Positions 40,971-44,606 of a stretch of 64,000 nucleotides of DNA are shown here, piece after piece (positions within the stretch are counted from its first letter, which is position 1; each line of letters opens with the position of its first letter). The notes below the pieces were generated by a model, which was not told where the DNA came from, made no database searches, and saw nothing but the letters and a program-made list of their open reading frames with translations. A program made the translations under genes and the position numbers. The stretch comes from Enterococcus faecium (GTDB lineage: Bacteria; Bacillota; Bacilli; Lactobacillales; Enterococcaceae). The DNA is taken from the NCBI RefSeq assembly GCF_029023785.1, contig NZ_CP118955.1, positions 2,181,001 through 2,245,000 of the forward strand, in the 5' to 3' direction.

Positions 40971-41215
40971 GGGAAATCTGTGATGTTCGAATTGTCCTCT
41001 TTGTGTGTTGACCGAACATTTTTATTGATATCTTGGGACCCGTCTTGTGTCACTGCTGGTAACATGCCTTATCATTTGGTAGTTCGAAGCTACGACCATG
41101 GGACCCACCTGCTTGAATTCGCGGGATCAATACTACAGGACAAACAACGGCATTAACGGAGATTACCATCTTTTAAAGAATAAAGCAATTTGCTCTTGGC
41201 AAATTGCTTTTTCTA
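40971..41215 (+). ncRNA. ssrS: 6S RNA
   Basis: About 200 nt of noncoding sequence between a promoter and a hairpin terminator (about 41184-41213, arms AAAGCAATTTGC and GCAAATTGC). The two ends can pair (GAGGTGGGAAATCT region with AGATTACCATC; TGTCCT with AGGACA), leaving an unpaired central part. Inner pairing includes ATTGAT with ATCAAT. This fits the closing stem, bubble and long hairpin of 6S RNA, which binds sigma-A RNA polymerase in stationary phase. Its position after rarA also matches. The mature 3' end is uncertain. Confidence 0.75.
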
Positions 41216-42726: not shown

Positions 42727-42755
42727 TTGAACTTTCTGACACTTTCAGGTACACT
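42727..42755 (+). promoter_or_regulatory. Promoter of the ABC-F leader
   Basis: TTGAAC (42727-42732) and TACACT (42750-42755) are spaced by 17 bp, about 35 bp before the leader ORF. Confidence 0.5.
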
Positions 42756-42789
42756 GGAAAAGACAACTACACGAAGGAGGGAAAATACT

Positions 42790-42918
42790 ATGATGCGCAT
42801 GACTAAAATAACAAGTAATGAAAATTACCAACGATACCATATCGCATTTAGCCATGCAATTGGTTTTACAGTTGCTGTTGACGGGACAAGTTTGTCCAAA
42901 ACAGTTGAATTCACGTAA
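42790..42918 (+). CDS. Leader peptide upstream of the ABC-F gene
   Basis: A 42-codon ORF starting MMRMTKITSNENYQRYH, with GAAGGAGGG eight bases before the first ATG. It ends TAA at 42918 right at the left arm of an attenuator. It has no known domain. Its position, strong ribosome-binding site and the following terminator resemble the regulatory leader ORFs of antibiotic-inducible ABC-F and methylase genes. The function is inferred, not shown. Confidence 0.6.
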   Translation: MMRMTKITSNENYQRYHIAFSHAIGFTVAVDGTSLSKTVEFT

Positions 42919-42923
42919 AATCA

Positions 42924-42999
42924 ATGGCCATCTCAAGGTATTTTTCTCATGATAATCTGAGTTTAAATAACACAGGCCATGGATAACCATGGCCTTTTT
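42924..42999 (+). promoter_or_regulatory. Transcription attenuator between leader ORF and ABC-F gene
   Basis: A 9-bp perfect hairpin (AGGCCATGG at 42974-42982 with its complement at 42987-42995, loop ATAA) is followed by T residues and forms an intrinsic terminator. An upstream ATGGCC (42924-42929), six bases after the leader stop, can instead pair with the hairpin's left arm (GGCCAT, 42975-42980) as an antiterminator. Confidence 0.6.
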
Positions 43000-43022
43000 G
43001 AGTGGTCTCAAGGAGAGAGATC

Positions 43023-44606
43023 ATGATCATACAAGCAATTTCTATTAAAAAAACAATCGGCGGGAATCCATTATTTGAGGATTTATCCTGTCAAATTGAA
43101 GCTGGTGAAAAAATTGCCTTAGTCGGTATCAACGGAACTGGCAAATCAACCTTTTTACAAATCTTGACCGGCAGAGAAGGTGTCGACAGCGGTGTTATCA
43201 GTCGCAAAAAAGGCTTAAAGATCGGGACGGTCGAACAAGAACTTACAGTTTCCGAAGCGACCGTCAACCACTACTTGCTCCATTCTGCCGCTGAGATACA
43301 GGACCTCAAACAGCAAATGAGTCGCTACGAAGCATTGATGACAGAACCAGATACAAACTTAGAGAAGTGTCTGGCCCGTTACGGTGAGCTGCAGCATCGC
43401 TTTGAAGAACTAGGCGGTTACGTATTAGAAGACCGGATTGCAGCGATCTTGCAAGGCTTAGGGATTCCACACCGTCAGGAAGCACGGTTAACAGAACTTA
43501 GCGGAGGCGAACGAGTTAAAGTCGCTTTAGCCAAAATTTTAGCAGCCGATGCCGATTTACTTTTACTCGATGAACCGACCAATCATTTAGATCTTAACAG
43601 TATTCGCTGGTTGGAAAACTATTTACAGAATACAAAAAAATCGGTTCTGGTCGTTTCTCATGATCGGCAATTTCTCGATCAAGTCACCACAAAAACATGG
43701 GAACTGGAAGAAGGTGCATTGATTGAGTATCCCGGAAACTACAGCCGTTTTCGAGTCTTGAAAGAAGCTCGCTTGGCTGAGCTGACAAAAAATTACGAAC
43801 TGCAGCAAAAAGAAGTCCAGCGGTTGAAAGTCATGATTCGTCGTTTTCGTCAGTGGGCACATGAAGGAGACAATGAGTCCTTCTTCAAAAAAGCCAAAGA
43901 ACTGGAACGCCGCCTGGCGAAACTGACACTCGTCAAACCGCCACCTCCCCCGAAAAATCGGCTGCAAAGCTTGTCTAATGGTGGAAAATCTGGCAAAGAA
44001 GTTTTCATCATTCAAAACTTGCACCAGCAGTACGCTGATCAAGTACTATTCAAAGACAGCAGTTTTGCAGTCTATCGTGGAGATCATTTAGCCATCATCG
44101 GCGACAATGGTGCAGGAAAATCAACCTTACTCAAATTATTACTCGGTGAGGAAAAGCCTTACGGTGGCACCATCAAATTAGGTAGTAGCTTGCAAATCGG
44201 TTATTTGCCGCAGCAGCTGCAGTTTGCCGATCCCGATAGCCGTTTGCTGGCTTACGCCATCACATTGACTGGAAACGAAGAAGTCGCTCGACGGCAATTA
44301 GCCAAAAGTGGCTTTTATCAAAGCGATGTGGGTAAACGGATCAAAGATTTATCCGGTGGTGAAAAAATCCGTTTGGCGTTGCTGAAACTCTTTTTAGAAA
44401 AAATCAACGTCCTGATTTTGGATGAACCAACCAATCACCTCGACAGCTATGCTCGAGAAGAAATTGAAGAAATGCTGCAAGACTATCAAGGAACGCTCCT
44501 AGCAGTCAGCCATGACCGCTACTTTTTGCAGCAACACTTCCAAGAAGCACTCGTTATTGATCAGGAGCAGATCAGCCGCCAGCCGCTCGGCCAACTGATT
44601 GACTAG
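43023..44606 (+). CDS. ABC-F family ATPase (translation factor or ribosome-protection type)
   Basis: A 527-residue protein with two ATP-binding cassettes and no membrane segment. Cassette 1: Walker A GINGTGKST, signature LSGGERVK, Walker B LLLLDEPTNHLDL. Cassette 2: GDNGAGKST, LSGGEKIR, VLILDEPTNHLDS. The inter-domain linker is short and charged (residues about 240-310), ending PPPPPKNR. ABC-F proteins bind the ribosomal exit site; some protect against antibiotics. I cannot match this one to Lsa, Msr or Vga. Hand counts of three 60-base lines give 45-50 per cent GC, against 32-37 per cent in neighbours, which suggests acquisition. The ATG at 43023 follows AAGGAG. Confidence 0.88.
   Translation: MIIQAISIKKTIGGNPLFEDLSCQIEAGEKIALVGINGTGKSTFLQILTGREGVDSGVISRKKGLKIGTVEQELTVSEATVNHYLLHSAAEIQDLKQQMSRYEALMTEPDTNLEKCLARYGELQHRFEELGGYVLEDRIAAILQGLGIPHRQEARLTELSGGERVKVALAKILAADADLLLLDEPTNHLDLNSIRWLENYLQNTKKSVLVVSHDRQFLDQVTTKTWELEEGALIEYPGNYSRFRVLKEARLAELTKNYELQQKEVQRLKVMIRRFRQWAHEGDNESFFKKAKELERRLAKLTLVKPPPPPKNRLQSLSNGGKSGKEVFIIQNLHQQYADQVLFKDSSFAVYRGDHLAIIGDNGAGKSTLLKLLLGEEKPYGGTIKLGSSLQIGYLPQQLQFADPDSRLLAYAITLTGNEEVARRQLAKSGFYQSDVGKRIKDLSGGEKIRLALLKLFLEKINVLILDEPTNHLDSYAREEIEEMLQDYQGTLLAVSHDRYFLQQHFQEALVIDQEQISRQPLGQLID

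Follow-up and report, generated by a model that had tools for sequence, protein, structure and literature searches.

The ABC-F ATPase gene in the 64,000-nucleotide stretch of Enterococcus faecium DNA analysed here (the window, meaning that whole stretch) is preceded by a leader with an upstream open reading frame (uORF) and an intrinsic terminator, which raises the question of what decides whether transcription continues into the gene. The elements located at the locus, with the pairing strands that are dealt with below, were the following:

42727..42755, +, putative promoter TTGAAC-17-TACACT (8/12 match; leader L031 has the same hexamers)
42774..42780, +, Shine-Dalgarno (SD) sequence of the uORF, AAGGAGG, read directly
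42779..42795, +, 5′ strand of helix P0, the SD/start region of the uORF (anti-antiterminator; swap z −7.8)
42790..42918, +, uORF (leader ORF) of 42 codons, ATG at 42790, TAA at 42916-42918, with the motif FSHAIGFT
42797..42807, +, 5′ strand of helix P1, GCATGACTAAA, codons 3-6 (swap z −5.7)
42847..42857, +, 3′ strand of P1, TTTAGCCATGC, codons 20-23 (swap test, column counts)
42859..42869, +, 5′ strand of helix P2, ATTGGTTTTAC, codons 24-27 (swap z −9.2)
42884..42897, +, P3 hairpin, GGACAAGTTTGTCC, whose AGU lies 32-35 nt from the Ala codon of the motif
42915..42925, +, 3′ strand of P2, GTAAAATCAAT, overlapping the start of AT (swap test, column counts)
42923..42931, +, antiterminator strand AT, AATGGCCAT (alternative pairing AT:T5, swap-tested)
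42929..42946, +, 3′ strand of P0, overlapping the end of AT
42974..42999, +, intrinsic terminator, hairpin 42974-42995 plus T tract, with the T5 arm at 42974-42982
42998..43007, +, D strand, TTGAGTGGTC, which can pair with AT instead and lies directly 5′ of the ABC-F SD
43002..43024, +, S hairpin, with the ABC-F SD and part of the start codon inside it
43010..43015, +, SD of the ABC-F gene, AAGGAG, read directly
43023..44606, +, ABC-F ATPase, 527 aa, ATG at 43023, ribosomal protection-like

An earlier note on this DNA had described a promoter, a uORF with a strong SD, a 9-bp intrinsic terminator and a competing upstream ATGGCC ahead of the ABC-F gene. The uORF and its SD lie where that note had placed them, as does the terminator, a hairpin of the sequence AGGCCATGG-ATAA-CCATGGCCT with a stem of nine pairs, six of them G-C. 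The ATGGCC at 42924-42929 is indeed complementary to the GGCCAT of the terminator 5′ arm, as read directly from the sequence. The surrounding 1021-base region contained four terminator-like sites against 0.8 ± 1.0 in shuffles, one of the four being the minus-strand reading of the same hairpin, and the leader RNA fold was more stable than 200/200 shuffles (z −4.2). The promoter is the weakest item of the layout: its hexamers are present, but their score falls under the 9/12 limit of the terminator/promoter scan, a level reached in 17/44 leaders against 14% of shuffles. In orthologous leaders the SD of the uORF is purine-rich (AAGGTGG in the g9 clades). The same window also holds Rfam matches to the 23S-methyl RNA motif (1774-1878, −, 89.8 bits) and to 6S RNA (40972-41166, +, 61.5 bits).

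The ABC-F protein carries both LDEPTNHLD motifs and passes the NCBIfam ribosomal protection-like model NF000355 (444.5 bits, cutoff 380), while falling far below the cutoffs of the named subfamily models Vga, Sal, Msr, Lsa, OptrA and CplR. Its closest named copies are those of Enterococcus casseliflavus and E. innesii (91% protein identity). At a threshold of E ≤ 1e-105, an orthologue was found in 55 of 105 family genomes. A covariance model, R1, built from 44 leaders of these 55 genomes, found a leader at E ≤ 1.2e-13 in exactly the 55; the eleven leaders outside its training set scored E 2.1e-26 to 1.2e-13, and the other 44 match by construction. The leader and its hairpin are thus conserved with the gene in 55/55 family genomes with an orthologue, as the attenuator reading of the earlier note requires. 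Three further R1 matches in the family, all with E ≥ 0.016, include one in a genome lacking the gene. Outside the family, 295 genomes were searched with R1 and 19 had a match; in 12 of these, nine from f8 and three from f2, it stood before an ABC-F frame; that in G159 lay before a 16S rRNA gene, whose start was recognised by eye, and the remaining ones were in G053, G143, G156, G175, G182 and G346 (E 0.009-0.09). Run over 398 class genomes, R2 gave six new weak matches (E 0.001-0.047), five of them before ABC-F frames in other families of the class. Locus L213 (G735:C22:74603-74737), a weak R2 match with E 0.047, has a GGGATAAGTCTGTC element before a 139-aa frame that by eye may be RidA-like.

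A tree of 74 ABC-F proteins placed 44/44 leader-bearing ones, a set chosen from loci with a recognised leader, in a single clade (support 0.995) with 0/30 of the others inside it. The strict leader search missed several loci that have a leader by eye, the check by eye taking in part of loci L148-L177; at L168 no leader was recognised within 700 nt. Plasmid searches with the window leader and with an MFS-linked leader (see below) gave no match. Two short, unannotated entries labelled 'Listeria phage', OR847261.1 and OR848419.1, match the window leader at 100% identity, the first over 100% and the second over 89% of the query, and are probably mis-sorted Enterococcus contigs. Patchy distribution is a type of hint used for resistance ABC-Fs in the available text of Murina 2019 (PMC6723617), and the 55/105 distribution seen here may likewise hint, and only hint, at a resistance role for the ABC-F protein.

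For the alignments A1 and A2, 44 of the 55 genomes contributed their leaders, with L031 standing for L105, whose contig has the same length, and L032 for L106, whose uORF is the same; L112, L114, L117, L127, L132, L135, L136, L141, L143, L144 and L146 lie outside them. In L003 the codon aligned as the first is AAG, directly followed by the ATG. A GACCAT-like AT strand was sought in 45 leaders and was present in 44 of them at a distance of 135-139 nt from the aligned start codon; in the remaining one, L117, it was not found where it was sought. Folding indicated a three-way arrangement in which P0 closes two arms, P1 and P2, the latter enclosing P3. RNAalifold, tried on the first alignment, gave almost no consensus structure (−1.8). 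Since the upstream half of P0 and the extension of P2 shift register between clades, duplex swap tests were used and only fixed-register pairs were counted.

In the swap test, partner strands were exchanged between 18 clades and duplex energies compared over 5000 permutations for each pairing. Six pairings (P0, P1, P2, AT:T5, AT:D and S) co-evolved, with z from −3.9 to −9.2, for strands picked after viewing the folds of some of those same leaders. Native duplexes were more stable than swapped ones for P0 (−18.9 vs −12.7 kcal/mol, z −7.8), P1 (−10.8 vs −7.0, z −5.7) and P2 (−12.4 vs −6.4, z −9.2), as well as for the two alternative pairings of the antiterminator, AT:T5 (−9.5 vs −8.3, z −3.9) and AT:D (−11.8 vs −9.3, z −5.1; this test took the last 28 nt before the ABC-F gene, the stretch that holds D). 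For each of these, 0/5000 permutations did as well. The S hairpin gave z −4.4 over the 18 clades (0/5000) and −4.1 over 13 (1/5000); in the g9 clades, in L009, L003 and L004, and in g2 this hairpin is weak or missing. None of ten non-partner control combinations was favoured (z −1.2 to +2.6, best 574/5000). A change of GGCC to GACC in AT is matched by one of GGCC to GGTC in the terminator arm.

Column counts over 44 leaders agreed with these tests in part. Of the cells counted, 81.0% were paired vs 36-48% in slid controls, and 64 double-change cells were seen against 25.8 ± 3.5 by shuffling; two of the five column measures were not above shuffles (double-change pairs, 166/500; further pair types, 189/500). 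Both sides change in the P1 pairs 8-68, 9-67 and 15-61. Conservation and co-evolution of the pairings are shown by the comparative data.

The leaders also share a repeat. The hexamer AATAAC occurs in the window leader at 42807..42812 (+) and again at 42966..42971 (+), just 5′ of the terminator. Its first copy lies in uORF codons 5-9 in 43/44 leaders, and its second is present in 38/44 against 2.1 expected by shuffling, always 10-70 nt after AT and in 29 of the 38 at 37-41 nt; it keeps this place even where the terminator lies much further off. No pairing partner was found in the leaders for the repeated hexamer, and the two copies are possibly a protein-binding pair.

How a ribosome on the uORF would affect these pairings was followed in a mask scan, in which the leader was folded up to the terminator 5′ arm with the ribosome footprint masked at each odd codon. 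This was done for 43 leaders, L003, whose terminator a script had misplaced, being left out (it was kept in the swap test); by eye, the loop of the L003 terminator hairpin seems to hold a long insertion, with both arms kept. With no ribosome, at least three AT:T5 pairs formed in only 1/43 leaders. With the ribosome at codons 1, 3, 5, 7 and 9 they formed in 34, 31, 25, 8 and 2 leaders, respectively; at codons 11-17 in 0-1, at codons 21-29 in 6-7 and at codons 37-39 in 5-7. The window leader itself went from 0.0 AT:T5 pairs without a ribosome to 4.3, 3.4 and 0.2 with one at codons 1, 3 and 5. Nine of the 43 leaders, L002 and L120 included, stayed under three AT:T5 pairs with the ribosome at codon 1. 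A ribosome at codon 2 raised AT:D pairing from 0.83 to 5.08, with an increase in 29/43 leaders. Accessibility of the ABC-F SD/start was not raised in the ribosome-masked fold (0.47 to 0.43), so that translational control through SD exposure, tried as a candidate, was not supported. In equilibrium folding with the complete terminator, the terminator formed at every ribosome position; AT:T5 was therefore measured before the 3′ arm exists, and the switch has to be kinetic, acting during transcription. The scan peaks at codons 1-5, so that arrest of a ribosome at the beginning of the uORF has the best support as the trigger.

These results are consistent with the idea, to which we give a probability of about 0.75, that the leader is a ribosome-sensing transcription attenuator of the ABC-F gene, set off by an early stall on the uORF and related to the Listeria RNA RliI. 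Transcription would start near 42760. In normal translation, ribosomes would leave the start of the uORF, whose SD/start region would then pair with the AT strand to form P0, braced by the two uORF-internal arms P1 and P2/P3; with AT hidden, the terminator would form and transcription would stop. If a drug that arrests initiation or early elongation, for instance, kept a ribosome on the first codons, P0 would fail to form, and the free AT would pair with the terminator 5′ arm, letting the polymerase read through. AT may also pair with D beside the ABC-F SD, in competition with hairpin S. The succession of these steps, the role of early stalling as trigger, induction by a drug and any effect on translation are inferred. 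The attenuation layout recognised in the earlier note is well supported by the co-evolving alternative pairings, by selection on the uORF and by the strict co-occurrence with the gene. Its proposal that a stalled ribosome frees the antiterminator finds support for codons 1-5 in the mask scan, but the anti-antiterminator, which is the uORF's own SD/start region holding the ATGGCC strand, had been missed, and the leader is one of a wide set with a resemblance to Listeria RliI. The ABC-F gene would on this account be induced by a ribosome-targeting drug or stress, as that note had proposed.

The uORF itself is, as sequence comparison shows, under coding selection. Within clades, changes in codons 8-19, the P1 loop, numbered 49/43/74 at codon positions 1/2/3. 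Single-base differences were synonymous in 301/550 cases in frame vs 125/577 and 70/548 in the other frames, these counts being pairwise and not independent. From codon 9 to four codons past the motif Ala, 0/44 leaders had an in-frame stop vs 26 and 31 in the other frames; these 44 were mixed-family leaders, partly chosen for having the ORF and motif, which biases the frame-0 count for the distant ones. Between Enterococcus and Bacillus timonensis the motif varies, with forms such as FSHAIGF, FCHAII, LCRAIIS and VCKAIFH. Across leaders the uORF has 26-53 codons, its C-terminal part varying in sequence and length, and in several leaders (L003, L016, L017, L121, L155 and L207) it ends just after the motif. 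The motif Ala codon lies 32-35 nt from the AGU of P3 in 38/38 leaders in which both were located, of 44; the AGU element was not located in six, and the script misplaced the Ala in L163. Part of the motif conservation is RNA-driven: Ser or Cys at codon 21 follows base pair 15-61, and codons 20-27 double as strands of P1 and P2. Early-codon stalling leaves peptide conservation to about codon 27 unexplained. To our knowledge the motif matches no known arrest peptide, and it is a candidate arrest sequence, one for which the short uORFs known from ABC-F genes offer no explanation.

That conservation is the starting point of a different account of the trigger, in which the motif (FSHAIGF here; FCHAII or LCRAIIS elsewhere), with or without a drug, arrests the ribosome around codons 22-30; P1 and P2 would then be lost and AT set free, with start-codon stalling secondary. 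Peptide-level selection in the P1 loop, the lack of stops before Ala+4 in 44 leaders of which several end just after the motif, the constant Ala-to-AGU spacing (38/38) and the low second AT:T5 rises of the mask scan at codons 21-29 and 37-39 all speak for it. Masking codons 21-29, however, leaves P0 intact and AT hidden in most leaders, that of the window included, and the RNA role of codons 20-27 weakens the argument from conservation. We consider arrest at the motif possible though rather doubtful as the chief trigger; it and stalling at the start codon may both be true. Peptide-level selection would also suit a uORF product that is a small protein with its own function, the RNA folds merely regulating it. 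Such a function is quite improbable, given that the uORF varies from 26 to 53 residues with a variable C-terminal part and that its start lies within P0.

Two further readings were weighed. The terminated leader could be a trans-acting small RNA, a role proposed for RliI, which has a reported trans target in the available text of PMC8079631 and binds Rli51 in that of PMC11394854; against this, the leader goes with the ABC-F gene in 55/55 genomes and is not above chance in the other 50, and three pairings (AT:T5, AT:D and S) co-evolve with sequence adjoining the gene, which makes a trans role improbable here. The terminator/antiterminator layout by itself would equally fit amino-acid attenuation or a metabolite riboswitch, and yet the peptide has by eye no conserved run of a single residue, no Rfam riboswitch or T-box model matches the window leader, the gene under control codes for a ribosome-protection-like ATPase and the coding selection points to translation; metabolite or amino-acid sensing is the least credible of the readings weighed, and very improbable.

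For the preferred reading, an attenuator that senses ribosomes at the uORF start, the relation to known attenuators was judged by structure, gene context and covariance models. The window leader itself has no match to RliI (RF01487), in which it differs from RliI proper, and its five Rfam matches to other families were at chance level (E ≤ 10). No Rfam match to the 'uup' RNA motif of the literature was found in the window leader or in 28 related loci. Of these 28 loci, seven passed the RF01487 gathering score (L014, L015, L018, L154, L160, L164 and L175) and 21 fell below it, L016 with 44.5 against the required 45. Conversely, R1 gave weak matches over the uORF of L154 (E 0.077 and 0.059). Like the window leader, RliI has two arms closed by an outer helix, the second arm carrying a GGYGAAGUCUGCC hairpin, and a terminator after them, and it lies upstream of ABC-Fs of the same clade; the RliI locus L154 also has a uORF with a similar motif, FLYIVRAIFSG. 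The window leader is thus probably a divergent relative of Listeria RliI. In the available text of PMC8079631, RliI is given as the putative conditional terminator of the ABC protein lmo2760, which would belong to the same ABC-F clade to judge from L154, L160 and L164; no mention of a uORF was found in the available passages on RliI.

The vmlR leader of Bacillus subtilis, as described in the available text of PMC9226507, has a uORF in the anti-antiterminator, an antiterminator, a terminator and an SD-sequestering hairpin, and is induced by initiation-type stalling. The window leader resembles it in that, by computation, the uORF start lies inside the anti-antiterminator and the antiterminator excludes the terminator. 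It differs in the uORF, which in vmlR has three codons (MIN) vs 26-53 with coding selection here. As to the SD hairpin, S co-evolves here, but SD accessibility does not rise in the folds. Known ABC-F uORFs are short (MIN, MR[I/M], MK[L/Q] and MAGN, according to the accessible part of PMC10201436). lmo0919/Rli53, cplR and lsaA share with the window an ABC-F gene under uORF attenuation, CplR being controlled at both transcription and translation, but their uORFs have three or four codons in the available descriptions (MR[I/M], MAGN and a three-amino-acid ORF). msrD/MsrDL and bmrB-bmrCD, in the accessible accounts, also use a translated upstream ORF in ribosome-mediated transcription attenuation, MsrDL differing as a short macrolide-arrest peptide. 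What is new here is a 26-53-codon uORF with a conserved motif, in a wide family with one copy before an MFS transporter.

That copy is in G195, where a second leader of the same type (L192:349-507; R1 E 5.6e-8), with a uORF, precedes an MFS transporter (MFS_1, 98.5 bits) that scored far below cutoff with efflux models. The protein has no relative at E ≤ 1e-60 in 17 other genomes of its family, making this a single case, and it suggests that the leader is a portable module.

The locus also bears on the history of the ABC-F segment. Between usp and ackA lie 262 bp in the close relative G009 (AckA 99%) vs 2968 in the window genome, and an ABC-F gene is also found between usp and ackA in G086, G087, G019 and G033. 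The segment 42164-44951, absent from close relatives, is colinear with the E. casseliflavus usp-ackA locus; to that of G086 it has 81-85% DNA identity, with deletions, the usp and ackA parts having 77-78%. The stretch 5′ of the leader looks like the degraded end of a coding gene, open in L002. Because the ABC-F is 91% identical in the casseliflavus-like comparison vs 85% for AckA, and because 11/14 genus-mates have no ABC-F orthologue, acquisition from a casseliflavus-like donor appears likeliest, and loss of the segment in other members of the genus less likely.

Taken more widely, the leaders would form an RliI-like family with two ribosome checkpoints on one uORF, the start codon acting through P0 and a nascent-peptide motif opening P1 and P2, carried as a portable module; we put this forward tentatively, with rather little confidence. 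The motif, written [FLY]xx[FLVI][CSV][HR]AxxF/S and fixed 32-35 nt before the hairpin, would, if this is true, be a new arrest peptide that depends on a drug or on stress, and RliI, which has been investigated as an sRNA acting in trans, would be chiefly a translated attenuator. The relationship links a broad range of enterococcal and bacillary leaders to a Listeria RNA that is poorly understood, with testable strands and a testable peptide, and it suggests that a clade of ABC-F proteins not covered by the named resistance subfamilies is expressed under translation stress.
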